Source of the DNA: Alopecurus myosuroides
Taxonomy: Eukaryota > Streptophyta > Magnoliopsida > Poales > Poaceae
NCBI GenBank assembly: GCA_028641055.1
Contig: CM054060.1
Location: forward strand, 315,817,344-315,881,343
Reading direction: 5' to 3'
Length of the DNA stretch: 64,000 nt
The notes under the pieces are model-generated. The model did no database searches and was not told the DNA's origin. It saw nothing but the letters and a program-made list of their open reading frames with translations. This document shows, piece after piece, positions 20,394-57,991 of the stretch (the first letter of the stretch is position 1; each line of letters starts with the position of its first letter). The position numbers were made by a program, and so were the translations under genes.

Positions 20394-21724
20394 TGTTGGG
20401 AATATGCCCTAGAGGCAATCATGTATGATGTAATTCCCACTGTATTCATAAAGTTATTAAGTTGTCCTTGTTTTGAACATCTGATATATGTCATTGAATA
20501 TGTGATTCGATTGTGGAACTATATATTCATGTTGTTCATACTAGATTGTCCTTGGTCATTTAGGTTGTGCTGGACACACACCCTAGACTAATGTGAGTGT
20601 TGGCTGATGACACGGTTCCACTTGTCATGGGCATGGTGATGCCATTCCAACATTCACGGACTTGGCTAAAGAGTTTAGCAAGTCGGACTGACCCACATTG
20701 AGATGCAACGATCAAGTCGTCATTTGCATGTCTCAATCAATGTAATCCTTAGACCTGAGATTGTCGCACAATCCGAGTTGTGGATCACCGACTTAGGTTC
20801 TGTCAAACGTTGTTCTGTGACAAGGCAACTATAAAGGCAGAGTTCGGGTCGAATGAGAAGCAAGCTGCGTGATGTGGATAATCAAGATGGGATTTTGCCC
20901 CTCCGATTGGAGAGATATTCTCTGGGCCCTCTCGAGTGATATGATTCAGGAAGCATGGCCATGCGCGACTCAGTTAAGTGTTAACTGTGTCGGTTGACTA
21001 AAGAGTTAGTCAGATGAATCGCATATCACGGATCGAGAAGAGAGTTGAACTATTTAAGGGATGACGATAAATCGCCTATAGTTCGACAAGGTATATCGTG
21101 AGGCAAAAGGGACTAAGATGAATATCACATTGAAAGGTATGTCGTCATGACTCAATGGTACTTGGGAGTCGGCACGTTCTGCTAGGAGCCGCTACCGATT
21201 GATCGATTGGGAGTTGGACTCCAATCGTGTCCAAGTCGCCATGAGCCTGCAGGGTCGCACACTTAAGAGCGGGAGCAAGTATTGGTTGGGTTGGACCCGA
21301 ACCGGAAATGGACTGAGTTAGTGAGTCGGACTCACAGAGGGAATGGGCCACAAGTGTTGTGCAGCCCATTACCATACGCTATATAAAGAGGGGCGCAGGT
21401 TGCCCAACGGGCACGTTAGTCCACTCTCCCATGCGTTGGGAACCCTAGCCCCACTCAGTCCAGCCGCCGCACCGGACCTAGCAGTCCGCCGTCGGAGCTC
21501 CTCCTCGTACGTGTGGATACCGGCAGAGGTGATGTACGTTCAGCACTTCGACGTTCGAGGGATTGGATCGGCCGGACCGGATCGTGGGACTGCACTGCCC
21601 CGACGCGCTGCACCGATAATCCGCACCTGCGCGTCTAGTGGTAATACTCGTGGCCTTCTACCTCGGCTAGATCTTGGGAGCATTGCGTAGGAAAAGTTTT
21701 CGTTTATCACTACGCGACCCAACA
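20394..21724 (+). repeat. 5' LTR of Copia 1
   Basis: 1331 bp, starts TGTTGGGAATATG and ends CGCGACCCAACA. Contains the promoter; short frames inside are not genes. Confidence 0.97.
21380..21388 (+). promoter_or_regulatory. TATA box in 5' LTR
   Basis: tatataaag in the context acgctatataaagagg, the best core-promoter match in the LTR. The copy in the 3' LTR is at 28044-28052 and would read outwards into LINE 1 sequence. Confidence 0.6.
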
Positions 21725-21725
21725 G

Positions 21726-21737
21726 TGGTATCAGAGC
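21726..21737 (+). other. Primer binding site (initiator Met-tRNA)
   Basis: TGGTATCAGAGC one base after the LTR, complementary to the 3' end of plant initiator methionine tRNA. Confidence 0.95.
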
Positions 21738-23080
21738 GGTAGCTTCTGGTATTAGGCCCAAGATCCGTACATATGTGATATGTAGTTAGCGTTAGATGTG
21801 ATCTAATTGCTGTTTTGGTGGTCGGTCTATGAGATAGATCGGTTTTGTACAAGGTTGATTGGATCAATCGTACTCGGGGTTAATGGATGATCTGGTTTCC
21901 GTGATCATACTGCTAAGGTCGTGGAACAACTTACCCCTACCGGTCGGTTTCCGCCATCGGGGTATACCGTGACACATAAATCCAGTTGCGGTGATCGAAG
22001 ATCAAAGAGTTTGGTCTAGTCGGAATACGGATCAGATTCGGGTAAAATCGTTTTATCCGATGAAGAAATCCATGATCGGAATGCAGATGAGTGGTATGGC
22101 TTAGATGTCGTTGCGAGTTGCGAGTTTCACAGATGAGGGACCGCCGTCGTCCTGTCGTAGCGCCTTAGATGTCATTGCGAGTTTCACAACGCCGGTAGAT
22201 ATCGTATCTATGCATAACTTGTTTTTGCAGGAAGTTGTGAATGGTATGGCTTATGTGCATGTGATGTGTGTAATCCATACATGATCTGCGTATCATGTTT
22301 TTGTCAGCCGGCTGGAGCCTAGGTGCTGTCATTTTATTGTATACCGGCCTGCGTGTCGGATTCTCTATGTAAATTTCATTTACTTAGCTAGCGTAGCTTG
22401 TTGGAGAACCCGGAAGGCATGCAAGTCGATGTACAAGTCGGCTACATGGAGCAAGATGGCACGTGACAAGAGTTGGCACGAGCCGACTTGCAAGCTTCGT
22501 GGAGATGGAGATCACCATGAAGAGAGCCATACCATTTCACATTATAATTGCTTTATTTGTGTTATTGTTATGTCTCTATTTACCTCTATTTAGATAGTTG
22601 GTAGATTCTTTAATCCCTCAAAGAAGGTCTAGTCGGTCGCCCCGCCAGTGCTGCACCATCACAAGTCGGACATTCTTGGTAGTGGGCTCATAAAATTGAG
22701 GTGCTACCAATTATTTCCGGTTAGGTGGATTTGAGTCGGACTCTTACACGCAGAAGCACTTGGTAATCTAGACGAGTCCATCACAACGGTTGTGGGGCTC
22801 GGGGCGAGGTAGGTTGGGAGCCGGGGCATGTGATGTCACCCAACTAACAGGAGTCGTATAGAGATACGATTGGCAAGGTGTTGCCTACCTAGATCACTTG
22901 ACGGCTAGCGGTGATGCTAAAGCTCACTAGTCGGCTTGCTTATTTAGGGTCCTGAATCACTTAGCAACCATCGGAGGGATGTTGGTTCTAGTGGGAGCAT
23001 AAGTATTAAAACGTTTAATATGCCTGCTCTTTTATGAATACATGTCTTAAGTGTTTTTGCGTATTTTCTGTTGTAGATCA
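21738..23080 (+). other. Untranslated leader of Copia 1
   Basis: 1.34 kb without a long frame. A ~30-bp phrase (cttagatgtcgttgcgagtt) is repeated at about 22101 and 22164. Probably contains packaging and dimerisation signals, but none can be identified by eye. Confidence 0.7.
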
Positions 23081-25054
23081 ATGGCACCTAGCAACCTTCC
23101 TCAGCTGTCCTCTTTTGCGTTGAGGTCAATCCTAGAGAAAGATAAGCTTAATGGAATTAATTTCACCAACTGGTATCGTAATCTGAGGATAGTCCTCAAG
23201 CATGACAAGAAAGAACATGTTCTAGAAACTCCACTTCCAGAAGAGCCTGATGATGATGCGACTGTCGCCGTCACAAATGCCTACCGTAAGACTAGAGATG
23301 AGTCTACGGAGATTAGCTGTCTTATGCTTGCACACATGGAACCGGACTTGCAGCAGCAGTTCGAAAATGTTGAGGCCTACGATATGATCGAAAGCCTCAA
23401 AAGTATGTTCCAGGCTCAAGCAAGGACTGAGAGGTATCAAGTCTCTCAAGCTTTGCTTGGCTGTAAGCTGAAAGACGGCGATCCACTGAGTCCGCATGTA
23501 ATCAAGATGATTGGTTACATACAGTCTTTGGATCGCTTGGGCTTCTCAATTAAAGAAGAGATCGCCACTGATATAATTCTGAACTCTCTTCCTAGTGCGT
23601 ATGGTCCGTTCATCTCGAACTACCATATGCATGGCATGGATAAGAGTATCACTGAATTACATGGGATGCTCAAAACGGCAGAGGCTGATATCAAGAAAGG
23701 CACCAGTCAAGTGTTGATGGTGCAGAATAAGGCTAAGTTCAAGAAGAGTTCTTGGACTAAGAAGAAGAAGGATAAGTCAGGAGGTAGCACCCATGGCCCT
23801 GTCCAGAGTGCTCCCTCAAAGACTAAGCCTTCTCCTACAGCCGGAGCCAATTGCTTTTATTGCAAGCAAGATGGCCACTGGAAGAGGAACTGCACCAAGT
23901 ATTTGGCTGACAGAGCCAAGAGTGGAGGTGTGACTTCCAACTCAGGTACGCTTGTGTGCAATGTTATAGACATTTATCTTGCTGATGCGCCTAATAGTTC
24001 TTGGGTATATGATACCGGATCAGTTATTCACATATGCAACTCGTTGCAGGGACTGGTAAGAACTAGGAGCGTGGCAAGAGGAGAGGTTGACATTCGGGTC
24101 GGCAACAAGGCGAGAGTCGCTGCGTTGGAAGTCGGCACGATGCAACTTCATTTACCTTCAGGATTTATTTTGGAACTAAATAATTGTTATTATGTTCCAG
24201 CGCTTAGCCGAAACATTATTTCCGCCTCATGTTTGATGAGACAAGGTTATGAGTCGAATATTAAGAATAATGGTTGTTCTTTATATTTGAAAGATATGTT
24301 TCATGGCTTTGCACCCGTTCAGAACGGGTTATTTATTTTAAATCTTGATAGTGAATCGGTCTATAACATAAATGTTAAAAGGTTGAAACCAAATGATCTG
24401 AATATGACTTACTTTTGGCACTGTCGGCTTGGTCATATAAGTTGGAAGCGCATGAAGAAGCTCCATGATGATGGACTTCTAACTTCGTTTGACTTAGAGT
24501 CATTCGAGACATGTGAATCATGCCTATTAGGCAAGATGACCAAGACACCTTTTGCAAGGAGTTGTGAAAGGGCGTCTGACTTGTTGGAACTAATACATAG
24601 TGATGTATGTGGTCCAATGAGCACGACAGCCAGAGGTGGTTATGAGTACTTCATTACCTTCACTGATGATTTGAGTAGGTATGGATATATCTATTTAATG
24701 AAACACAAGTCGGAAGCCTTTGAAAAGTTCAAGGAATTCCAGAGTGAGGTACAAAATCAACTCGGCAAGAAAATAAAGTTTCTACGGTCGGACCGTGGAG
24801 GCGAGTACATGAGTCATGAGTTTGATGACCATCTAAAGAGTTGTGGAATAGTTCCTCAACTCACTCCGCCGGGTACACCGCAGAGAAACGGTGTATCGGA
24901 ACGGAGAAATCGGACCTTGTTGGACATGGTACGATCAATGATGAGTCGGACAGATCTACCTTTATCATTTTGGGGTTATTGTCTAGAAACTGCAGCTTTC
25001 ACACTAAACAGAGTACCATCAAAGTCAGTAGAGAAGACACCACATGAGATGTGA
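23081..25054 (+). pseudogene. Copia 1 gag-protease-integrase, ended by a nonsense codon
   Basis: Start at ATG 23081 (MAPSNLPQLSS). An upstream in-frame ATG at 23051 has no family support. Gag is followed by the zinc knuckle CFYCKQDGHWKRNC (~260). Then come the protease motif DTGSVIHIC (~315), the GAG-pre-integrase region with WHCRLGHISWKRM (~450), and the integrase with Asp in HSDVCGPM, Asp in RSDRGGEY and Glu in NGVSERRNRT. The frame stops at TGA 25052-25054, a position normally occupied by Trp, and the same frame goes on without interruption to 27022. This is therefore a single point mutation rather than the end of a gene. Truncated protein about 658 residues. Confidence 0.93.
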
Positions 25055-27022
25055 ACGGGCAAAAAGCCAAGTTTGTCTTTTCTTAAGATTTGGGGTTGTG
25101 AGGTATTTGTCAAGCGACTTCAGTCGGACAAGCTCACGCCCAAGTCGGATAAGTGTATTTTCGTGGGGTATCCGAGGGAAACCTTGGGGTACTACTTCTA
25201 CAACCGGGAAGAGGGCAAAGTGTTTGTCGCTCGGAACGGTGTCTTCCTTGAGAAAGAGTTTCTCAGTCGGGAAGTCAGTGGGAGCACGGTGCAACTCGAA
25301 GAAATTCGAGAGGAACCGGCTAGGGGCGAGTCGGCGAACGCCTTGGAGGCTGAGCCGGTCGTGGTACCTACACCGGTAACAGCACCTGAACCACGGAGAT
25401 CTGCCAGATTACAGAGTGCTCGAGATGTTTTACTGTTAGACAGTAATGAGCCGGCAACTTATTCGGAAGCGATGGTGGGATCTGATTCCGAGTCATGGCT
25501 TGGAGCCATGAGATCCGAGTTAAAGTCCATGGATGAAAACCAAGTTTGGAACTTGGTTGATCTGCCTGACGGTGCAAGACCCGTCGAGTGCAAATGGGTC
25601 TTTAAGAAGAAAATTGATATGGATGGAAATATTTCCGTCTATAAAGCACGACTTGTCGCGAAGGGGTTCCGACAGGTTCAAGGAGTTGACTACGACGAGA
25701 CATTCTCGCCTGTAGCGATGCTTAAATCAATTCGGATCATGTTAGCTATAGCAGCCTATTTCGACTATGAGATATGGCAGATGGATGTCAAGACGGCTTT
25801 CCTTAATGGAAATTTAACTGAGGACGTGTATATGATACAGCCCGAAGGTTTTGTCGATCCAGCTAATGCTGACAAGGTATGCAAACTTCAGAAATCCATT
25901 TATGGGTTGAAGCAAGCATCTCGGAGTTGGAACATTCGCTTTGATGAGGTAGTCAAATCGTTTGGCTTCATCAAGAGCGATCATGATTCTTGTTTATACA
26001 AGAAGTTTAGTGGGAGCAAAGTGAACTTTCTAATCTTATATGTGGATGAGATATTACTGATTGGAAATGATGTCATGATGTTGCAAGAAACCAAAGAGTC
26101 ATTGGAAAGGAGTTTCTCAATGAAGGATTTGGGTGAGGCAACTTACATATTAGGAATCAGGATCTATAGAGATAGATCAAGGCGGCTCATTGGATTGAGT
26201 CAGAGTACTTATCTGGACAAGGTTTTGAAGAAATTCAAAATGGAAGAGTCCAAGAAGGGATTCTTACCGATGTCCCATGGCATAAAACTTAGCAAGACTC
26301 AGTGTCCTTCGACGACTGATGAGCGAAGTCAGATGAGTGTGATTCTGTATGATTCGGCAATCGGATCCATCATGTATGCAATGATTTGTACTAGGCCAGA
26401 TGTTTCCTATGCTCTAAGTGTTACGAGCAGATACCAGGCTGACCCTGGCAAAGCCCACTGGGCAGCGGTTAAAAACATTCTTAAGTATTTGAGAAATACT
26501 AAGGAAATGTTCCTAGTTTATGGAGGTGATGAGGAATTCAGTGTAAAGGGTTACACGGATGCGAGTTATCTCACCGACTCAGATGATTCTCGTTCGCAAT
26601 CTGGATACGTGTTCGTGATGAACGGAGGGGCTGTGAGCTGGAAGAGTTCCAAGCAAGATACGGTGTCTGCATCTACAACAGAGGCTGAGTATATTGCTGC
26701 CTCAGAGGCGGCAAAGGAAGCTGTTTGGATCAGGAACCTCCTGATTGATCTTGGTGTGGTTCAGGGCGCGTCCAATCCTTTGGACGTATATTGTGACAAC
26801 AATGGTGCTATCGCACAGGCCAAGGAACCTAGACAACACCAGAAGAACAAACATATACTCATGCGGTACCACCTCATTCGCCAGTTTGTCGAACAAGGTG
26901 ATATCAAGTTATGCAAAGTACACACGGATGCAAACATTGCAGATCCGCTGACAAAGGCGCTACCACAGCCTAAGCATGAGGCGCACACGAGAGGTATGGG
27001 CATTAGATGCCTAGGCATATGA
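25055..27022 (+). pseudogene. Copia 1 reverse transcriptase-RNase H, downstream of the nonsense codon
   Basis: Same frame as the upstream part, open for 655 codons. It contains the integrase tail (FLKIWGCEVFVKRLQ, IFVGYPRETLGYYFY), RT ([60 protein letters not shown]) and RNase H (VKGYTDASY, SSKQDTVSASTTEAEYIAASEA, YCDNNGAIAQAKEP). The RT active-site motif reads YVDE, where the family has YVDD, so the second catalytic Asp is changed (GAG at about 26047-26049). Ends with TGA 27020-27022. Confidence 0.93.
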
Positions 27023-27044
27023 TGCCAGGATGATTGACTCTAGT

Positions 27045-27057
27045 GCAAGTGGGAGAC
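27045..27057 (+). other. Polypurine tract of Copia 1
   Basis: gcaagtgggagac directly before the 3' LTR; initiates plus-strand DNA synthesis in LTR retrotransposons. Confidence 0.8.
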
Positions 27058-28388
27058 TGTTGGGAATATGCCCTAGAGGCAATCATGTATGATGTAATTC
27101 CCACTGTATTCATAAAGTTATTAAGTTGTCCTTGTTTTGAACATCTGATATATGTCATTGAATATGTGATTCGATTGTGGAACTATATATTCATGTTGTT
27201 CATACTAGATTGTCCTTGGTCATTTAGGTTGTGCTGGACACACACCCTAGACTAATGTGAGTGTTGGCTGATGACACGGTTCCACTTGTCATGGGCATGG
27301 TGATGCCATTCCAACATTCACGGACTTGGCTAAAGAGTTTAGCAAGTCGGACTGACCCACATTGAGATGCAACGATCAAGTCGTCATTTGCATGTCTCAA
27401 TCAATGTAATCCTTAGACCTGAGATTGTCGCACAATCCGAGTTGTGGATCACCGACTTAGGTTCTGTCAAACGTTGTTCTGTGACAAGGCAACTATAAAG
27501 GCAGAGTTCGGGTCGAATGAGAAGCAAGCTGCGTGATGTGGATAATCAAGATGGGATTTTGCCCCTCCGATTGGAGAGATATTCTCTGGGCCCTCTCGAG
27601 TGATATGATTCAGGAAGCATGGCCATGCGCGACTCAGTTAAGTGTTAACTGTGTCGGTTGACTAAAGAGTTAGTCAGATGAATCGCATATCACGGATCGA
27701 GAAGAGAGTTGAACTATTTAAGGGATGACGATAAATCGCCTATAGTTCGACAAGGAATATCGTGAGGCAAAAGGGACTAAGATGAATATCACATTGAAAG
27801 GTATGTCGTCATGACTCAATGGTACTTGGGAGTCGGCACGTTCTGCTAGGAGCCGCTACCGATTGATCGATTGGGAGTTGGACTCCAATCGTGTCCAAGT
27901 CGCCATGAGCCTGCAGGGTCGCACACTTAAGAGCGGGAGCAAGTATTGGTTGGGTTGGACCCGAACCGGAAATGGACTGAGTTAGTGAGTCGGACTCACA
28001 GAGGGAATGGGCCACAAGTGTTGTGCAGCCCATTACCATACGCTATATAAAGAGGGGCGCAGGTTGCCCAACGGGCACGTTAGTCCACTCTCCCATGCGT
28101 TGGGAACCCTAGCCCCACTCAGTCCAGCCGCCGCACCGGACCTAGTAGTCCGCCGTCGGAGCTCCTCCTCGTACGTGTGGATACCGGCAGAGGTGCTGTA
28201 CGTTCAGCACTTCGACGTTCGAGGGATTGGATCGGCCGGACCGGATCGTGGGACTGCACTGCCCCGACGCGCTGCACCGATAATCCGCACCTGCGCGTCT
28301 AGTGGTAATACTCGTGGCCTTCTACCTCGGCTAGATCTTGGGAGCATTGCGTAGGAAAAGTTTTCGTTTATCACTACGCGACCCAACA
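27058..28388 (+). repeat. 3' LTR of Copia 1
   Basis: 1331 bp, three differences from the 5' LTR seen by eye. Followed by the duplicated ATAAA at 28389-28393. Confidence 0.97.
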
Positions 28389-29884: not shown

Positions 29885-31958
29885 GGCCCCGTTTGTTTGG
29901 GCTTCAACTTCAGCTTTTAGGGTCTAAAAGTAGAAGCCCAAACAAACAACATGAGGTTGAAAAGCGCTGCCTAAAAGCGTTGTGCCAAATTGCACTAACC
30001 GAGCGAGCAAGCGTGGAAGCAGGAAGGGAGCTGCTTCCCGCAGCTTCTAACTTCATATCTAAATCGGTATTCCTTACTGCCCCTTCTATTGCTTAAAACT
30101 ACATGCATACAACCACCGTGAGAAAAACCTTTTTACTTCCTTCGCGTGCACGTCTACAGTGCACCACGTCCAGCAGCTGCACTCCCGCAGACACACATGT
30201 ACGATGCATCTATCCCTATAAGGGCATCCCCAGTCGCCCCCCCAGTCGCCCCCCCCCAAGCGGCCTTTTTAGCGCCGGAAGAGGCGAATAGCGCCGTTTC
30301 CGCACCAGTCGCCCCCCCCCAGAAGGCCAAATAGCGCCGAAACGGCGCTATTTCGCGCCGTGGCACCCAGGCCAAACCCAGCCCGCTGGGTTCGGTTTGG
30401 GGGGGCAAAACTGCGCTCCAGCTCGCGCGGGCCAGCTCTGTCAGTGACGCGGCGAAAAAACGTGGGAACATAAACCCCCGTGATCATCTTCTCGGCTCCC
30501 GTGTCGGTTAAAGTCTGCCGGCGTTTATGGTGTGGCGGCCGCCCAGTGCATGCGCCCGTTCAAAGACTGCCGGCGTAATGGCGTGGCGGGCGGCAGCGAG
30601 GGGACGCGACGCAGTAAATGCCCGGCAGGCTACAAAAAGCCCCCCGCCGCTCGCCGCCCTCCCCATTCTTCCATCTCGCTGCTCCCTCGCCATTCTTCCT
30701 CGGCGCTCTCCTCTGTCCCCCGTGCTCTCTCCCTCCTCCACGCAGATGGCCAAGTACGATGGCGCCGCCGCCGCCAACGGCTGGGTTCGCCGCCACCTTC
30801 ACCGGAATGAGGCGTGGGCGTTGTACCGGACGTCGACTACAGCCAGGCGATCGCTGCGCGCCTAGGACTGAAGTAGTTTAGTTTGTTTTAGTTTAAATTT
30901 GCGTCGAAATGTATGAACTTTGCGTGAATCAATAAAATGCGTCGAGTTTCATAACGAGAGTTTTTTTGGGCCGAAAGTTGGGCTCGGGGGGCGACTGGAA
31001 AGCCTGCCCCCCAGGTTCCATATTAGCGACGTTTAACGCCACGGCGGCCCCAAAACGGTGGCGTTTTGGGTCCTGGGGGCGCAATGGCGGAAGATGCCCT
31101 AACAAGTGCATCCAGCATCAACAGTACCACATGTACCATGCGTACGGCAGCTGCGGATGCTATTATGCATGCTCAAAGCCTCAAACACATATTCAATCTC
31201 ACAAAAATATACTTGTATTCAAAATAATTTGTATAAAAAATATAGGTATGTCGATGAGTAGGTTTAATTCTCTAATCAGTTTTGAGTTTCGTGGTCTGTA
31301 GCTTCTTATATCATACCAAAGTGTGCACCAATTTTAGACGAATTTGTCAAATTTTCCTCACTCGATCGACTGTTTGATATTCCTTTCACAAATAGATTGA
31401 CCTCGCAATTTTCCACAAGTTTCATGTAGTAACATTTTCGTTTGGTCGGATATAAATGAATGAATAGATTTTATATATGTATATAAGCAGATTTTATATA
31501 TGTATATAAGCGTGTACACTCTCCTTATCGTTTTGTTGCACCAGCTCATGGTGTGGTTGTGTTTGGTGTCGGACGACACCACCGTTTGGCCAGACGCCAT
31601 TCCCCGTCGCCATCGCCATAAGCCAAAAGTTAAAAGCCGAAAGCCATAAGCCAAAAGCTAAAAGTCAAAAGCCAAATTCGTTTTAGTAAAAAAAATGTCA
31701 AATTGAGATAATTCAGCTATTAAGCATGGCAACTATGTTAAAAAAAAATCAGAGTTAGCTAAGTCGTTTTGAATCATCGCTAATACAACTTTTTCAGCAT
31801 TCGAGACATTCCATACTTCAAACCAGCAGCAGCTGCCATCGACAGCAGTTCCTGCCAAACATCTAATCTCAGAATCATCAGCTGCTTCTCACAGCTGCTT
31901 CTCACAGCTCAACAGCTACGGCTGCTTCTCCACAGCAGCAGCTCAAACAAACAGACCC
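29885..31958. mobile_element. PIF/Harbinger-like non-autonomous element with TTA duplication
   Basis: Ends ggccccgtttgtttgggc (29885) and, inverted, gggtctgtttgtttgagc (to 31958); TTA at 29882-29884 and 31959-31961. No transposase. About half the length is a second element (30222-31099). The interior is rich in 'agcttct'/'agaagct' motifs and includes an array of ~10-bp 'aaaagccaaaagc' repeats at 31618-31675. Inserted in the 5' untranslated region of LINE 1: 31962-31993 is the LINE's first 32 bp. Confidence 0.75.
30222..31099. mobile_element. Small Harbinger-like element nested in the previous one
   Basis: 878 bp, inverted ends gggcatccccagtcgcc and, inverted, gggcatcttccgccattgcg, with TAA on both sides (30219-30221 and 31100-31102). 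The subterminal regions are full of 'agtcgccccccc' and 'agcgccg' repeats. An internal short frame beginning MAKYDGAAAANGW (30746) has no recognised family; a poly(A)-signal-like aataaaatg lies at 30930. Confidence 0.7.
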
Positions 31959-32058: not shown

Positions 32059-32171
32059 AGTTGCTACAGTATTGCGTACATCGATATTTGGGATCGGCTT
32101 TAGGCTCTGCGTCCTACTCCCGCGCTGCACAGGCCACAGGCACCCATCGAGTCAAAAAGCGGGGGACGCGG

Positions 32172-32968
32172 GTGACTTCTTTTGGGGCTTCTAGCTTGCT
32201 TATAGGTCCAGAGAAGCATAAGCACAAAAGAACTCTCTAGTTTCTAGACAGCTTATTTCCACCGAGAAGCCAAAATTGTACACAACTCCAGAAACTGCTA
32301 GGTACCTCCTTCCCGAGCTTCTCCGATCGGACGCGAAGGGGTATCGAGGAAAATTACGGGCAAATTGCCACCGCAGCCATCCGTGGGGGCAACAACCGAA
32401 CAGGAAAACGTTTCGTAAAAAAAAACAGAAAATGCATCGTCTCTTTCCCTGAGCGATAGGAGGCCGACACCCAGCAGACCACGCCGCCGCCGGTGAAAAC
32501 CGCACCACCGTCGCCGTCCCAGCCACTCCCCGGCCAGATCCGGGCGTGGAACGAACGGATCCGTCGCCTCCTCTCCGTTCCCTGCAAGATCAAGGCCGTC
32601 CCTCGTCTCCAGCTCAGATCCCGTCCAACCGCTTGCAACTCCGACGCCGGCGCCGTGCGTTCACACGTCAGGACGTCGACGAGCAACTCAACCATCGCAG
32701 AACCGTCGACCCACCGTCCTCAACAAGCACCGTTCGCCGTCCTCAATGTCGACCTCCGGAGCAGCGGTAAGGAGCTCGAAATTCCTCAAGTTTGTGTGCT
32801 CTCGTGTGATGTTCCCGTATTGTGAGATGTACGTGAGCAGTGAGGTGTGCACTGATGTTCCTGAAAAATGGTCCTTTGTACTGTGATGTTTGTACACAAT
32901 GTGGTGTTCCATGTACATGTTACGGGTTTGGTCTGATATGCTCTAGAGGAGCTCGAAAATGGTCATCT
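32172..32968 (+). promoter_or_regulatory. 5' terminal region and putative first exon of the Harbinger derivative
   Basis: AT-rich terminal part, then a GC/CT-rich segment (32470-32766) resembling a plant 5' untranslated region. It ends with a short coding start, ATG at 32746 (MSTSGAA), and a consensus donor gtaagg at 32767. Transcription from here would pass into the palindrome. Promoter activity is inferred from position only; I see no clear TATA box. Confidence 0.45.
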
Positions 32969-33617
32969 AGTGTGACTTCTTTTAAACTTCTGCTTATGCA
33001 GAAGCCAGCTTCTGGATTTTGGTGGGGAGAAACTGCGGTGGGCAGAAGCTGCCAGAAACTGCTCGGGAGAGTTCTTTTGTGCTATACTGTTTTGGCTTAT
33101 TTGCTAGGATGAATTTTCAGATGTCTGTTATGTCCCTTATTTTCATATACGCGTGAAATAAAGCGATATATACTAATATTAAATCGAAAATAAGCTACAA
33201 ATAAAATATAAATATTATGAAAAGGTAAATGATAATAAAAAATACGTTATGGTAGTGTAATTAAGTACGTGTCAAAATAATACAAATGTCAAAGTTATTT
33301 AGAAATAAAAATAAATAAATGCTCAAGCTACTATTGAGCGAGCGATGCTATCTCGAAGTGCACCCATGATGCTATCAGATGAGGAGGGAGCAGATCCACC
33401 AGTCCAAGATGCGCTTTCCTCGTGAACATATGGGCCTCGCTCAAAGGTTTCAAAATGTTGATCATATAGCTTACTGTCACGGATGAAGTTATGCAAACAC
33501 ATGCATGCAGTGATGATCTTTGTTTGCGTCAGAGTGTCATGGAAATGTGGTATTGCAAGAAGAATGCGCCACTTCATCTTCAGAACGCCGAATGCTCTTT
33601 CAACAGCATTTCGTAGA
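32969..33617 (-). repeat. Left arm of the 649-bp inverted repeat
   Basis: Pairs with 33636-34284 (position p with 67253-p). Only one mismatch noticed (33026/34227), so identity is about 99.8%. The spacer is the 18 nt caaccatcttcattcatt at 33618-33635. Confidence 0.95.
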
Positions 33618-33733
33618 CAACCATCTTCATTCATTTCTACGAAATGCTGTTGAAAGAGCATTCGGCGTTCTGAAGATGAAGTGGCGCATTCTTCTTGCAA
33701 TACCACATTTCCATGACACTCTGACGCAAACAA
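33323..33733 (-). pseudogene. Harbinger transposase C-terminal fragment, antisense copy
   Basis: Shares the family block NAVERAFGVLKMKWRIL, IPHFHDTLTQTKIITACMC and LHNFIRDSKLYDQHF. The Glu of VERAFG is the third acidic residue of the DDE nuclease in the DDE_Tnp_4/Harbinger family. The first two Asp and the MYB-like partner ORF are absent. The N-terminal ~45 residues of this frame come from reading through the palindrome centre out of the other arm and are not protein-like. Confidence 0.85.
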
Positions 33734-33930
33734 AGATCATCACTGCATGCATGTGTTTGCATAACTTCATCCGTGACAGTAAGCTATATGATCAACATTT
33801 TGAAACCTTTGAGCGAGGCCCATATGTTCACGAGGAAAGCGCATCTTGGACTGGTGGATCTGCTCCCTCCTCATCTGATAGCATCATGGGTGCACTTCGA
33901 GATAGCATCGCTCGCTCAATAGTAGCTTGA
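33520..33930 (+). pseudogene. Harbinger transposase C-terminal fragment, sense copy
   Basis: The mirror image of the minus-strand fragment: the same protein apart from a few residues at the centre (VDNHLHSF instead of VEMNEDGC). Ends SIARSIVA with TGA 33928-33930. It lies in the orientation of the element's 5' region, i.e. as expected for the original transposase gene's last exon. Confidence 0.85.
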
Positions 33931-34284
33931 GCATTTATTTATTTTTATTTCTAAATAACTTTGACATTTGTATTATTTTGACACGTACTTAATTACACTA
34001 CCATAACGTATTTTTTATTATCATTTACCTTTTCATAATATTTATATTTTATTTGTAGCTTATTTTCGATTTAATATTAGTATATATCGCTTTATTTCAC
34101 GCGTATATGAAAATAAGGGACATAACAGACATCTGAAAATTCATCCTAGCAAATAAGCCAAAACAGTATAGCACAAAAGAACTCTCCCGAGCAGTTTCTG
34201 GCAGCTTCTGCCCACCGCAGTTTCTCGCCACCAAAATCCAGAAGCTGGCTTCTGCATAAGCAGAAGTTTAAAAGAAGTCACACT
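33636..34284 (+). repeat. Right arm of the 649-bp inverted repeat
   Basis: Inverted copy of 32969-33617. Includes the transposase 3' end, an AT-rich 3' untranslated part and the element's terminal repeat. Confidence 0.95.
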
Positions 34285-35047
34285 TTATCCTGTGTGCGCT
34301 GCACAGGCCACAGGCACCGATGGGAACAATTTTATCAGTTCCCATCGTCGGCGAGCAATGATGCGAGCCGAACAAGTTTTTAACTGATTAATTTTGGAAT
34401 CTGTAGGCTTATATAATTTAGCCGGGGATTAATTAGAACACTTTGCTAGATATGGTACTGAACTGATGCCGCGCAGGTACTGAATCACAACGGCCCAGCA
34501 CAATGAACCGCGTAAAGGAATTTCATTTAAGCACTCGTGGTTAGATAATTAGTACATTTGATAATGTCCAAGAACTAGGTCAGGTGCTTGATGGTACATT
34601 TTGGTGTCCTATTGGACAGTGTATTGCAGTTGTCTAGTTCTACCTATATATCGGTGTATCTGATTGTAAAATGAACATGTGATTCTTAAAGTTGTTCTGT
34701 TGGTGTACTCATGACGTGTTCCATTTCTTTATCAGGTTGTGCCGTTCGTGAGTTCGGTTGTTTGAACACGGTGCAGAATTCATGTTTTTCAAGGTACTGA
34801 TCCCTTTAACCATGAGCGGAGAACCGTTCCCTTCAAGGTACTGATCCCTTGCTGTGTTGTGCTCTGGCTCATGCTGATAAAGCACGCATAATAAACATCT
34901 GTCATCTGATGCGGTCTTCATGCATGTCTTATTGCCTAGTAGATTCCTTGTGTCAATTCATGAAAATAAACTTGCTCTTTCTCCGATTCTCTTCCTCTCT
35001 CCGTGGATAATCCTTTTCTGCTCAACTCAGATGGCTTATTTTTATTA
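34285..35047. other. Unassigned spacer
   Basis: No gene. Contains a hairpin gatgggaac/gttcccatc (34319-34346) next to the 23-bp direct repeat, and a duplicated phrase ttcaaggtactgatccctt (34788 and 34831). The recurrent 'ggtactgaatcacaac' wording near 34475 reappears at about 50312. Confidence 0.4.
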
Positions 35048-35064
35048 TGCCGTTTTTTGTATAT
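35048..35064. repeat. Target-site duplication of LINE 2 (left)
   Basis: tgccgttttttgtatat, identical to 41516-41532. Confidence 0.93.
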
Positions 35065-36858
35065 CCTCCTCGAAACAGGCTTTACGCCCCACTTTATAAA
35101 TAAAGCACCCAGTAACTGCCAGGTGAAGATCTTAATCTTCAAGGGCATAGGCGCTTTCCACATATGGGTCGCCCAAGGAGTCGTGGGCCCTCTAAATAGG
35201 GCCCGGTATGCCGACCCCACCGAGAAGTTCCCCGAGGGTGCTAGGGACCACGCAACCGCGTCTGGCATGTCCCCTAATGCCCGGGGGAGAGAGGCAAGAA
35301 GTAGCTCCCACTTTGCGGCCTCCACCGGGCCAAACGTACGACGGAAACCAACATTCCACTGCCCGTTCTGGACCGCCCCCGCCACCAACACTCCCGGCTC
35401 TGAGAAGATCGCAAACAACTTCGGGAATTCGTGACGGACGGAGCGGGCACCTAGCCAAGGATCCATCCAGAACAGGATCCCTCTTCCGTCCCCTACGGAG
35501 AAGGAAATCCCACGGCGGATCTCATGCTTGATAGCCTCTATGGTTCGCCAAAACTGTGAACCCTTCTTCCGCTCACACGCCATAAGCGGGAACCCCCTAA
35601 GATATTTCGCCTTAATAAGTTGGAGCCAAAGGCCCCCGTCGTTCCGTAGGATCCGCCACACCCATTTTAGCAGAAGTGCTTTATTCATTTGGCGGAAGGC
35701 CAGGATCCGTATGCCCCCAAGCTGCTTAGGGGCGCAAATATCCGCCCATTTCACCATATGGTAATTTTGGTGACCCTGCGCATCCTGCCAGAAGAAGCGA
35801 GATAATTCCTTATCGAAGCTGGCATGGACGCCCTCCAGAAGCAAGTATAACCCAATCATATACATGGGGAGGCTAGACAGGCAGGAATCAATAAGAATAG
35901 TCTTACTCCCTTTCGATGTGAACCGCCCTTGCCATGGTTCAGATCTAGTTTTGAACCGCCCTACCAGCGGGTCCAGATCCTTGATAAGGATCCTAGAGCT
36001 ACGAATAGGCACTCCCAGATAGGATATTGGGAGCCGTGTCAACCTACAATTAAGGTTGTCGGCAATCTGTTGTTGGTCCTCCGCGGAGTAGCCAAGAATC
36101 ACAACTTCACTCTTGTCAAAGTTGATCTTAAGGCCTAACATGGATTCAAAGCACAAGAGTAGGAACTTTAGATTGATACTGTCAAGTTCCGACCCCTCGA
36201 CCATGCTCATGGTGTCGTCCGCATATTGGAGGTGGGTCACCCCTCCTCCAGGGACCAAATGTCCAACCACCCCAGAGATGTGGCCACAGGTCTTGGCGCG
36301 CTCCAAGATCTCTGCTAGGACATCCACCGCCGCGTTAAACAGTAAGGGTGAGATGGGATCACCCTGTCGAACCCCACACATGGCTTTAAAATAGGGGCCG
36401 ACTGTCCCGTTAATATTAATAGTGGTATTCCAGCTCATGACCAATTGCATAATCCAGCAGATCATCCGGTTATCTACTCCCCTTCTCTACAAAGCTAGGC
36501 GGAGGAAGGGCCACTCCAAGCGATCATACGCCTTTTGGAAATCCGGCTTGAGAAATACGCCCTTCTGGCGGCGTGATTTCACCTCATGAACAATTTCATG
36601 GAGTGTCAGGATCCCATCATGGATGTACCAGCCTTTTAGGAAGGCGAATTGGTACGGATGTGTGAGGCGTTCCAAAATCAGAGCAAGTCTGGTGGCGCAC
36701 ACTTTGGAGAAGATCCGACAGATGACGTTCAGGACAGTAATCGGTCTAAATTGGCGGATGTCCGAGGCCCCCACTATCTTGGGGATCAAGGTAATCACGC
36801 CAAAATTAAGGGGGGACATCACCAGAGTTCCAATGTAGAATTCTTGAAACATCGGCAT
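35065..36858 (-). pseudogene. LINE 2 ORF2, reverse transcriptase and truncated C-terminus
   Basis: 36858-36487 carries RT blocks GVITLIPKI, FRPITVLNVICRIFSKV, YQFAFLKGWYIHDGIL and FLKPDFQKAYDRLEW. After a frame change, 36465-35065 is open for ~470 codons. It holds GVRQGDPISPLLFN, the catalytic YADDT, GLKINFDKSEVV, YLGVPI, and the downstream region with FFWQDA, HMVKWADICAPKQLGGIRI and FWMDPWLG. It ends at VSRR where the LINE stops; the following IYKKRH... residues come from the flanking target site. The RT active site is intact in sequence, but N-terminal breaks make the copy inactive. Confidence 0.9.
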
Positions 36859-36869
36859 GATGACCGCCT

Positions 36870-38415
36870 TGATCGTCTCCCAGGATTTCTGGAAAAAAGG
36901 TCACTGGAAGGCCATCAGGCCCAAGTCCGCCTTCATATCCATGACCGCGCGGGCCACCTCCTCCTCCAGGAAGGGGAGGGTAAGGCCTGCGTTTTCCGCA
37001 TCCGAGACCTGTGCCCCAGCTGGCCACGAGTCCTGGAGTAACGAAGTCCCCGTGCGTGGACCCGCGGCAAATAACTCCTTATAAAAGGAGTAAATATGGG
37101 TGGAGATCTCTCTCGGCTCCTCCAAGAGCTAATCGCCCTCTCATTGTAAAGGAATAGAGCATTTCGTCGCGATCGCATGGAAGTATGCTGTATTAGCCTC
37201 GCTCCTAAGGATCCAGTTCTGGCGACTCCGTTGTCGCCAGGAGACCTCTTTGCCTTCGTAAATCTCCATAAGGGAGTCCTCAAGGGCGTATCGCTGGAGC
37301 CAATCCTCCGCAGTAAGCCCTACCGAGTCCGAGGAGCGATCGAGGGACTGGATCTCTTCCAGGATTGTCGCTTTCCTCCTCTTCACCTCCGCTCTAAGGT
37401 TAGCACCCCAAGCCCTCATGAATTTGCGGGACATCTGAGCGCAGTGATGCCATGCGTCCACCACATTAAACATGCGAGGCGGATTACCCGCAGCCTCAGT
37501 CTCGAGCCTGGACCACTTCCACAAAACCTGGTTTCTCAAGTCAGAAGTTTTCAAAGTGGAAGCGATTCAATTTCGGTGGAATAGCGCCGCCAGACGACAA
37601 CAATAGGGGAGTGTGGTCCGAGCCAATCCTAGTTAGCGCCACCGAGACAAGGATCTGATCCAGCACACACCGGACCGGGTCCGCCTGGTTGCTAGTCCAG
37701 GTGTATCTAGCTCCTACCCGCCTAATCTCCTTAAGTGCAAGGTCAGCGATGCAGTCATTAAACAAATCGATCCGTCGATGGTCTACATTAGCCATACTTT
37801 TGTCATCCGGGGACCTTATGAGGTTAAAGTCCCCGGCAATAACTATCGGCGTTGAGCATCTGTCTACCTTGCCGCGTAACTCTGCAAGGAAGGCCAGCAA
37901 TCTGCTGTGGTCCGCGGGGCCATAAACAATAATCACCTCCCATTGGAGGGAGGTATGTCTATGGGTAAGTAGCATACTACGAAGAATTCCCCGCGGTCCA
38001 TGTCCTCCACATCAAAGGTATCCTCCTTTGCACCAAGGAGGATCCCGCCTGAGTGACCCGTAGCCGGCAACCATTGACAGGCAAATTTGAAAGGGCTAAG
38101 GCGCTGTAACTCATGGATGGAGAAATCCTGCCGAATCATTTCCTGAATCCCCACAGTAGCAACCTCTTCCCGTCCCATATATTCGCTCAGCTGCTTTGAC
38201 GAGCCCTCCCGCGCGAACCCCGCATGTTCCAAATTAATGATTGGATAGGGACATTCATTGGGAAACACTATCGGGGGGCGTCCCTTTATAGGGGACAGAG
38301 CGGGCCCTACCAGAGGTCGAGGGCCGAGACGGAGCCTTGGGGACCTTGGGAGGCCTCCCTCGCGGTCGCCCCATCTGGGAAACCCGCTGAGGATCCTCCG
38401 TCCCACTAGGCACAC
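36870..38415 (-). pseudogene. LINE 2 ORF2, endonuclease and linker
   Basis: 38415-37933 includes the N-terminal half of an APE-like endonuclease (VATVGIQEM with the metal-binding Glu, FACQWLPATGHSGGILLG). 37975-37541 has the second half: VIIVYGPAD, VIAGDFNLIRSPDDKS, YTWTSNQ and a terminal IGSDHTPLLLS with the SDH motif kept. 37554-37141 is the linker to RT. Frame changes occur at about 37950, 37550 and 37130. Confidence 0.85.
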
Positions 38416-54590: not shown

Positions 54591-54904
54591 ATACAGATCA
54601 ATTGAAAACTGAAAACAGTGACACACAAATAAGAACACTACAGAATGCATCCACCCAGTCGAGAACGTGACAAAATGGCAGGCCATGTTTTATGGGTTAC
54701 TACTGAATGGTGACAATAATCTGCTACATAATACATCACTATTGCTAATCCCACAAGCAGAAACATAAATACAAATTTACCAAGCATTGACCAAACTAAC
54801 GAAAATGTTTGCTAACTGATGGACTAACAAGACTGAATATATATAAAAAGCTACAGCTAGCAGTGGAAACAGATGTGCTCAATTCTTTTTGTCTGTTTGC
54901 TGTT

Positions 54905-56460
54905 TATGTCATAGTTTGTTTAAAGCTGACCATATTTCACACAAATATGCATATTGGTACAACTAACAATGTTCACGAAGAAAGTTTTACTTTTCGTTGA
55001 ATACAAATACCATTTTCCCTTTCCGGAGTGTCAAAACTGGGTTCTTTTTGTGAAGCACATACACAAAATATGTTACAAAAATGTACAAAGTAAAATTATA
55101 AATATATTATGTCATATTTGATCTACAAATAACAAACTTACTACCTCTCAACAACTCAAAATACACCTCTTTCGAAAAAGACAAATTTCTGCTGATTCCG
55201 TTGAAACCGGGCCAAATTTGAACTACAGGTGTCTCATAGTTTGCTCATGATTTTTTGTAAAAATCATTTTTAGGTATCCAAGTACCTATTTCAACAGAGA
55301 TACACCAAGAGTTCATCCAGATTCAGCACCTAGGTACGAACGGTCATGCCCCCCTTTTGACCGTTTCCCGAAACCGGCTTAGAAAATTACAGAAGATTCA
55401 CAAATACTCGAAACGATGCAAGACATTCGCGTGGTGTTGTTTATATATGTCCTAGTATCCACCAAAAACAATAAACTTGGAATACGACAATTTGGTAGAA
55501 AATGTGTTCACAGAAATGAGCTATCTCGTACGAAGATTCATGGCTTTCGGGCCAAATGACGGATGTTTTGGCCACATTCATGGAATAGTTTGTTTAAATC
55601 TGACCATATTCCACGCAAAGATTCATATTGGTACAACTAACAATGTTCACGAAGAAAGTTTTATTTTTCGTTGAATAAAAATACCATTTTCCCTTCCCGG
55701 AGTGTCAAAACTGGATTTTTTTGTGAAGCACATACACAAAATATGTTGCAAAAATGTACAAAGTAAAATTCTAAATATATTATGTCATATTTTATCTACA
55801 AATAACAAACTTACTACCTCTCATTACCTCAAAATACACCTCCTTTGAAAAATACAAATTTCTGCCGATTCAGCTGAAACCGGGCCAAATTTGAACCACA
55901 GGTGACTTGTAGTTTTCTCTTTATTTTTTGAAAAAATCATTTTTAGGTATCCAAGTACCTATTTCAATATAGATACACCAAGAGACCATCAAGATTCAAC
56001 ACCTATGCACGAACGGTCATGTCCCCCGTTTTGACCGTTTTCCGAAACCGCCTTTGAAAATTCCAGAAAATTCAAAACAACTCGAAACGATGCAAGATCT
56101 TCGCGTAGTGTTGTTATATATGTCCTAGTATCCACCAAAAATAATAAACTTGGAATACGACAATTTGGTGGAAAATGCGTTCACATAAATGAGCTATCTC
56201 GTACGAAGATTCATGGCTTTCAGGCCAAATGACGGATGTTATGGCCACATCCTTGGCATAGTTTCTTTCAATGTGCCCATATTCCAAACAAACATTCATA
56301 TTGGAACAACTAACAATGTTCATGAAGAAAGTTTTATTTTTCATTGAATACAAATACCATTTTCCCTTTCCGGAGTGTCAAAAAACGGGTTATTTTGTGA
56401 AGCATCTACCAAAAATATGTTGCAAAAATTTACCGAAAAAAATTATAAAGCTATTATGTC
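54905..56460. repeat. 674-bp tandem repeat, about 2.3 copies
   Basis: The phrase starting 'atagtttgtttaaa' recurs at 54911, 55585 and 56258 (spacing 674 and 673), followed each time by 'caactaacaatgttcacgaa' and 'ataccattttccctttccgg'. The third copy breaks off at about 56460. Confidence 0.9.
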
Positions 56461-56462
56461 AT

Positions 56463-57495
56463 AGAGAGAAGTGGATGCCGGTGAATCGGCCCACACTCCG
56501 ATACGGGAGTTTCACCCAATAAGCGCGTGTAAACTCACGAGAGAGAAGTGGATGTCGGTGAAGCGGCCCACACTCCGGAGTGCAATATTTGCCATAAAAA
56601 TCACACAACACACCTATACTAACATGGTATGGAACCCCCTAGCTTTTGTTGGGATCCAGACGCTCCGTAGCCCCCCCCTCCGGTGAAACCCTACCTCCGC
56701 TGGAGAAATACCGGACTTATACGGAAACACGCGGTAACGGCGTCGAAAGGGGGTAGCAATGTGGAACTAGTTGCTTTTTGTATTAGGGTAGTCCATAGCA
56801 ACCCAATACAACAAGGTAGAACACAACTCTTTGGAAGATTCACGATGTTTCGTCCGATACGCGAGTTTCACCCTATAAGCGCGTGTAAACTCACGAGAGA
56901 GAAGTGGATATCGGTGAACAGGCCCACACCCCGGAGTGCAATCTTTGCCATCAAAATCACACTACACAACTATACTAACATGTTATGACACCCCCTAGCT
57001 TGTGTTGGGATCCAGACGCTTCGTAGCCCCCCTCCGGTGAAACCCTAGACCCGTTGGAGAAATACAGGACTTATACGGAAACACACGGTAACGGCGTCGA
57101 AAGGGGGTAGAAATGTGGAAATAGTTGCTTGGTTGTGTTAGGGTAGTCCATAGCAACCTAATACACATTGGTAGAACACAGCTCTCCGTAAGATTCACGA
57201 TGTTTCTTCCGATACGGGAGTTTCACCATATAAGCGCTTGTAAACTGACGAGAGAGACGTGGATGCCGCTGAAGCGGCCCACACCCCGGAGTGCAATCTT
57301 TGCCATCAAAAGCACACAACACACCTATACTAACATGGTATGGAACCCCCTAGCTTGTGTTGGGATCCAGACGCTCCGTAGCCCCCCTCCGGTGAAACCC
57401 TACCTCCGCTCGAGAAACATCGGACTTATACGGAAACACGCGGTAACGACGTCGAAAGGGGGTAGAAATGTGGAACTAGTTACTTGATTATGTTA
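56463..57495. repeat. 355-bp tandem repeat, about 2.9 copies
   Basis: 'gggatccagacgctccgtag' recurs at 56651, 57007 and 57363 (spacing 356 and 355), together with 'gtaacggcgtcgaaaggggg' and 'cgcgtgtaaactcacgagag'. A 76-bp sub-repeat at the left edge is duplicated. The frames inside are repeats of one another and not genes. Confidence 0.9.
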
Positions 57496-57991
57496 GGGTA
57501 GGCCATAATAAACAAGGTATTATTATAAATCGATAAATAAAATTAAATATTGTAAATATAAATTTAACAAGCTTTTTTGGAAGAAAAAAAAATTCTTTAC
57601 CGTGCACACGACAAAGAACTGAAGAAAAATTCTTCCCACGGGCACAGAAAAGTGGGATTCAATGTCAGTTATTTGCCGTGTGCATGCACACGGTAAAGTA
57701 CATATCTTTTCCGTGTGCATGCACACGACAAAGAATTAAAGAAAAATTTCCATTCCGTCCGCAACGGAATGGCCACGTGGCAGTTATCTTTGCCGTGTGT
57801 TTTCTTTACCGTGTGTTTTTCTTGATATTTGTCGTGTGCCTTTCTTTGCCGTGTGTCTTTTTCTGTACTAAACCGTGCATTTTTCTTTACCGTGTGCGAC
57901 ACACGGCAAAGAAAATCAATGCCGTGTGCCCGATGGAATGCACACGGTAAAGATTCGAGCACACGTGAAAGATGTGCTCCCGTAGTGAGAT

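Follow-up and report, generated by a model that had tools for sequence, protein, structure and literature searches.

An inverted duplication of a transposase 3' end follows a transposon 5' end

We analyzed a 64-kb stretch of Alopecurus myosuroides DNA, which we refer to at its full length as the window, and focused on a palindrome of 1316 bp (32969-34284) identified by repeat finding. The palindrome consists of two 649-nt arms separated by a gap of 18 nt. When the arms were compared directly, they were complementary at 648 of 649 positions, and the sole mismatch was a C/G transversion (33026 versus 34227). Repeat finding and direct comparison therefore bore out an earlier note on this DNA, which had described 649-nt arms with one mismatch and an 18-nt spacer. 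In a self-comparison of the window that listed matches of at least 60 nt at E 1e-10, this was the only long near-perfect inverted repeat; the next-best inverted repeat with two separate arms was 185 nt long at 84%. Neither a second copy of the palindrome nor a further copy of this transposon family was found within the window, and no Rfam match in the window reached the gathering score. Table 1 lists the features of the locus. In this order, the parts make up a rearranged, non-autonomous copy: the 5' end comes first and is followed by the 3' end twice, once inverted and once direct, while the central portion of the transposase gene is gone.

Table 1. Features of the rearranged element and its edges (positions in the window).
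Feature	Position	Strand	Basis
Left copy of the 23-bp exact direct repeat (25/26 if extended to 32147)	32122..32144	+	repeat search
27 bp between left direct repeat and element terminus	32145..32171	.	word search
Single-copy 5' part: terminus, leader, candidate first exon, intron start	32172..32968	+	sequence, arm comparison
Element 5' terminus GTGACTTCTTTT (12 bp)	32172..32183	+	shared-word test
Candidate first coding exon MSTSGAA, phase 0, then donor GTAAGG at 32767	32746..32766	+	sequence, Festuca relative
Left arm: 3' end in inverted orientation, its outer edge lying 3 nt past GTGACTTC	32969..33617	-	repeat finding, direct comparison
Six AATAAA hexamers (33157, 33200, 33234, 33304, 33310, 33314)	33157..33319	+ (of left arm)	motif search
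Spacer of 18 nt, coding sequence native to the right copy (NHLHS)	33618..33635	+	aligned relatives
Transposase C-terminus of the right copy, ERAFG	33619..33927, stop 33928-33930	+	profile match, relatives
Right arm: 3' end in direct orientation, including the 3' untranslated region and 3' terminus	33636..34284	+	repeat finding, direct comparison
11 bp TTATCCTGTGT, starting TTA, between right arm and second direct repeat	34285..34295	.	sequence
Right copy of the 23-bp direct repeat	34296..34318	+	repeat search

The arms encode the C-terminus of a PIF/Harbinger-type transposase

Each arm encodes a C-terminal transposase block with an ERAFG motif, the glutamate of which we take to be the third catalytic residue. 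The right copy together with the spacer (33619-33927) translates as NHLHSFLRNAVERAFGVLKMKWRILL and onward to the stop. The 97 amino acids tested from the right arm matched the Pfam families Plant_tran (E 3.8e-6) and DDE_Tnp_4 (E 1.4e-5), both above the curated cut-off, and the right arm with the spacer was 87% identical to two Alopecurus aequalis proteins (P0001 and P0002). Of 87 candidates in a protein search, 14 were hits, all of them with PF13359 on record, and the best relatives came from Alopecurus aequalis (88% in the search table), Lolium perenne, Puccinellia, Festuca and Hordeum. Over two query proteins, the named relatives were mostly from grasses, including Alopecurus, Lolium, Puccinellia, Festuca, Hordeum, Aegilops and others. 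These profile matches and 87% relatives agree with the earlier claim that a C-terminal Harbinger transposase block with its glutamate lies in each arm. Sequence comparison thus supports a PIF/Harbinger-type transposase of a grass family as the source gene. The locus resembles PIF/Harbinger elements and Tourist MITEs in carrying the transposase C-terminus of that superfamily; what is present of the DDE/DDD transposase is the C-terminal part with the glutamate only. Two overlapping 5' open reading frames were tested for ORF1, the Myb-like second gene, and gave no Pfam match; ORF1 may have been located in the deleted middle of the element.

The alignment of relatives also assigned the spacer. It comprised 11 of the 14 hits. 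In the direction of the right copy the spacer reads NHLHSFLRN, and NHLHS is present in 7 of the 11 relatives with close variants in the other 4. We conclude that the spacer is native to the right copy and that the left copy ends 18 nt earlier. As a continuation of the left copy, the spacer gives MNEDGC, which is found in 0 of the 11 relatives. The earlier note was right about the length of the spacer, and the relatives add that it is coding sequence of the right copy. In the same alignment, P0001 and P0002 have VNSGY in what is presumably the second catalytic block, where the other nine proteins have DSGY or DAGY. Judging from this motif, these two closest relatives may be inactive.

The single-copy part carries the element's own 5' end

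The terminal 12-mer GTGACTTCTTTT recurs in both arms, set in by 3 nt from the outer edge. A second 12-mer, CCAGAAACTGCT, is common to the 5' part (32288) and the arm (33052), with the order kept. Among 2000 shuffled 5' ends, one shared 12-mer occurred in 6 and two in none, and none of 2000 random window segments, drawn with those near the locus skipped, shared 12-mers. Gapped alignment of the element's two ends, global or local, was not better than that of shuffled sequence, so the assignment of the 5' part and the arms to a common family rests on the exact shared words. The candidate exon, ATG TCG ACC TCC GGA GCA GCG, is followed directly by GTAAGG. A Festuca relative, P0005, has the N-terminus MSTPAPSQMNSS, and its start appears compatible with a short first exon here, an argument that is weak on its own. 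A search for a few TATA-like patterns in the 5' part returned only TTATAG at 32200. The two shared 12-mers, together with a candidate MSTSGAA exon that reaches its donor in phase 0, support the earlier reading of this part as the element's own 5' end with a first exon and donor site.

The insert lacks a target-site duplication and is bracketed by a 23-bp repeat

Both arms run to AGT/ACT, 3 nt past GTGACTTC, and stop there. That the palindrome halts at the element edge suggests a transposase-cut end. The position of the edges also bears on whether the palindrome could be an assembly artefact, in which a read or contig has folded back on itself. Single-molecule reads are known to produce artefacts in the form of near-perfect palindromes, and the locus resembles that form. 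A fold-over, however, would be expected to mirror the flanking DNA too, whereas this palindrome ends at the element edge on both sides with different sequence beyond. In addition, the arms differ at one arm-specific base, the left copy is 18 nt shorter, and a separate 23-bp direct repeat surrounds the insert. We therefore regard an artefact as extremely unlikely.

No target-site duplication of 2-9 bp, and hence none of 3 bp, was found around the element at offsets 0-5, and the same search around the palindrome gave one 2-base match only. The trinucleotide TTA is present 3' of the right arm only. The parts of PMC2213677 that describe PIF/Harbinger elements give them 14-25-bp terminal repeats that bear G(N)5GTT and a paired TTA/TAA duplication, both of which are lacking here. 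The ends of the element share the 12-bp GTGACTTCTTTT, and neither end has G(N)5GTT within its first 27 nt. In the same excerpts, G(N)5GTT serves as a rule for mining a single legume, and the authors state that such termini were lacking in half of the transposase ORFs they first found (PMC2213677). Of the features of Tourist-like MITEs, neither many copies nor a 3-bp duplication was found, as the window holds no second copy and the element no duplication. Because a target duplication is missing, we name the element a rearranged derivative of a family with a PIF/Harbinger-type transposase and not an intact member. Just upstream of the insert is a Tourist/Harbinger-like element (29885-31958) with the ends GGCCCCGTTTGTTTGGGCT and AGCTCAAACAAACAGACCC; it has G(N)5GTT in both ends and TTA on both sides, the classical ends that are absent from the hairpin element.

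The true end of the element is either AGTGTGACTTC, in which case TTA would be what is left of a duplication, or GTGACTTC, in which case the 3 extra bases would be a copy of the target site. Under either end, the inverted copy would terminate at the position of the transposase cut. If the 3 extra bases are a target-site copy, this would fit an excision that takes one copy along, and according to the portion of PMC2836001 on excision, PIF/Harbinger excision, where analyzed, usually removes the element plus one 3-bp target copy.

A feature that the earlier note missed, along with the missing 3-bp target-site duplication, is an exact 23-bp direct repeat, GCGCTGCACAGGCCACAGGCACC, that brackets the whole insert and is absent elsewhere in the window at up to 3 mismatches. 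Among 2000 random segment pairs of the same spacing, the one pair with a 23-nt shared word was this locus, and the next longest word was 13. In the stretch that separates the left repeat from the element, 24 bp (32148-32171) were tested and contained no word of at least 11 nt that recurs in the window. A flanking duplication of this length suggests repair of a staggered break. A small perfect inverted repeat, CGATGGGAAC...GTTCCCATCG (34318-34347), adjoins the right 23-bp repeat and is possibly the fragile site where the break occurred.

These edges can also be read as those of a mobile element with long inverted repeats, similar to a fold-back MITE, in which the 1316-bp palindrome with its two perfect 3' termini moved as a unit into a relative's copy. 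Such an element would explain the identical outer termini on both sides. Against it, the search around the palindrome found no target-site duplication apart from the 2-base match, and the window has no second copy. The right copy has native coding sequence at its inner edge, as would fit an element that broke and was fused, although this is not decisive alone. Taken together, we find movement of the palindrome as a unit very unlikely.

The rearrangement is young and lies among other transposable elements

Rates of 6.5e-9 to 1.3e-8 substitutions per site per year are used for grasses. At these rates, one difference in 649 positions corresponds to an age of roughly 60-120 thousand years, with a wide interval of 1.5-660 thousand. 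The arms may look too young because gene conversion between them is possible. Unless gene conversion kept the arms alike, their near identity (648/649) supports a recent rearrangement, as had been proposed from the sequence before.

A Copia-type retrotransposon, typed from its translation, occupies 20394-28388 and has two 1331-bp LTRs with 3 differences and ATAAA on both sides. By its sequence it is a young insertion, and thus the palindrome is not the sole young feature of the window. To the right of the palindrome, degenerate LINE-like reverse transcriptase ORFs on the minus strand (34936-38011, labelled from translation) end about 650 bp away. Two long sets of direct repeats lie at 54903-57507 (889 nt at 90%, offset 674; 657 nt at 89%, offset 356). 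A long ORF with a proline-rich repeat run (942-2999) gave no Pfam match of its own at E 0.01; its relatives, with identities of at most 84% among the 7991 scored candidates sharing most words, carry PF26133 (DUF8039 in several), and one of them is named CACTA En/Spm-like.

A transcript through the arms could form a hairpin or a short antisense RNA

In the structure predicted for 32460-34284, the arms pair with each other at 648 of 649 positions, and the predicted fold of the arms alone is -1210 kcal/mol, which upholds the hairpin potential claimed earlier. A transcript entering from either side meets antisense 3' untranslated and transposase sequence first and the sense copy second. On the plus strand, the left arm contains six AATAAA hexamers and the right arm none; when the left arm was shuffled 500 times, six were never reached. 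Transcripts that start in the 5' part may therefore be polyadenylated before they fold back, leaving plain antisense RNA. On this sequence evidence, a short antisense transcript is as plausible as the full hairpin. Several acceptor-like sites are also listed inside the arms, and splicing from 32767 to one of these could cut out part of an arm.

The silencing that such RNAs might cause depends on what the arms contain. The promoter-side (5') end of the family is absent from the arms, which hold the 3' terminus. Silencing of a promoter would therefore need spreading, and the expected targets would be the transposase mRNA and 3'-end DNA rather than the promoter.

Considering these results together, we propose that the rearranged copy acts as a silencer of its family through hairpin or antisense RNA, and we put the probability of this joint reading at about 40%. 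About equally likely is that the locus is an inert relic. On this reading, a transposon copy was misrepaired within silent DNA rich in TEs, and its hairpin exists on paper, is untranscribed and silences nothing. Rearranged TE copies are common, and TE sequence lies all around this one (Copia, LINE-like and Tourist-like), which suggests silent chromatin. An inert copy would also be in keeping with the internal deletion of the element, with a 5' part in which no convincing promoter element was recognized, and with the poly(A)-like signals in the path of a transcript. On the other hand, the structure is young, its arms are intact and its 5' end is kept, so that it still has the means to be transcribed. 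Transcribed long inverted repeats of plants usually yield small RNA. Examples are described in the relevant sections of PMC11390486 and PMC8005961.

Discussion

Among natural cases in which an inverted transposon copy triggers silencing, Mu killer of maize is the best known. In the excerpts of PMC3440606 considered here, it is an internally deleted transposon derivative with an inverted duplication of terminal repeat and transposase sequence, for which a hairpin RNA was proposed and antisense transcripts were found. An inverted duplication of a terminus with transposase sequence is likewise present at our locus. Mu killer derives from MuDR (Mutator) and has halves of about 1.3 kb that both start with TIRA, with a center left unsequenced in that paper (PMC3440606), whereas our locus is PIF/Harbinger-type, has 649 nt of the 3' end in each arm, keeps a separate 5' end upstream and has a readable center. 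The promoter-side terminal repeat is not in both halves here; the 5' end is single, and the arms carry the 3' terminus. The parallel with Mu killer drawn in the earlier note thus holds for the inverted duplication of terminus and transposase, but does not extend to a promoter-side end in the arms, as far as the excerpts of PMC3440606 allow the comparison. The kind of structure is known from Mu killer; its build differs in the duplicated 3' end, the single 5' end of its own upstream, the other superfamily and the readable center.

Other grass hairpins offer further comparisons. Tpd1 of teosinte and the hairpin loci of maize pollen, in the passages of PMC11390486 that present them, are similarly long and near-perfect hairpins that would feed Dicer-like enzymes, and more than half of pollen-specific 22-nt small RNA in maize comes from hairpin precursors. 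Tpd1 is directed against a host lipase gene and is backed by small-RNA evidence (PMC11390486), whereas our locus would target its own transposon family. Iw1 of wheat, as summarized in excerpts of PMC8005961, is likewise an inverted repeat in Pooideae whose transcript is a long hairpin resembling a coding gene; it differs in targeting a carboxylesterase-like gene, in its identity of more than 80% and in a reported 21-nt miRNA-like RNA. Among the literature matches listed, none was a PIF/Harbinger inverted-duplication silencer, judging from titles and the starts of abstracts, which is no proof of absence.

We envision the following model for the origin and action of the locus. A break within the element would have been followed by tail-to-tail joining or fold-back, with 18 nt lost from one copy. 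The other end of the inverted copy would be an end freed by transposase that kept 3 nt, these being either one copy of the target site or the element's final bases. The product of about 2.15 kb would then sit in a break-repair patch with its 23-bp duplication. Transcription, whether begun outside or at the element's own 5' end, would enter the arms antisense first and yield a long hairpin or a short antisense RNA ending in the left arm. Dicer products could act on family copies at their 3' ends and on the transposase mRNA in its 3' half. As the family's own 5' end is used, this brake would switch on together with the family. We conclude that the structure is probably real and young, and that it appears similar to Mu killer but differently built; from its sequence, a silencer role is credible.

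A more specific proposal is that the family's own 5' regulatory end and first exon, standing ahead of the inverted transposase tail, make a promoter-matched self-brake, in which the signal that wakes the family also makes antisense or hairpin RNA. We consider this proposal unlikely. If it were true, the trigger would need no neighboring gene, unlike in the read-through model for Mu killer, and silencing could work despite a transcript end before the fold-back, as antisense is read first.

How plants first recognize an active transposon is an open question. A second case that is independent, fully readable, differently built and from another superfamily would reveal if triggers of this kind arise repeatedly, and if the antisense-first order or the hairpin structure matters. 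The breakpoints of this locus, with arm edges at the element edge, an asymmetric center of 18 nt and a 23-bp bracket, record how triggers may arise from botched transposition and repair.
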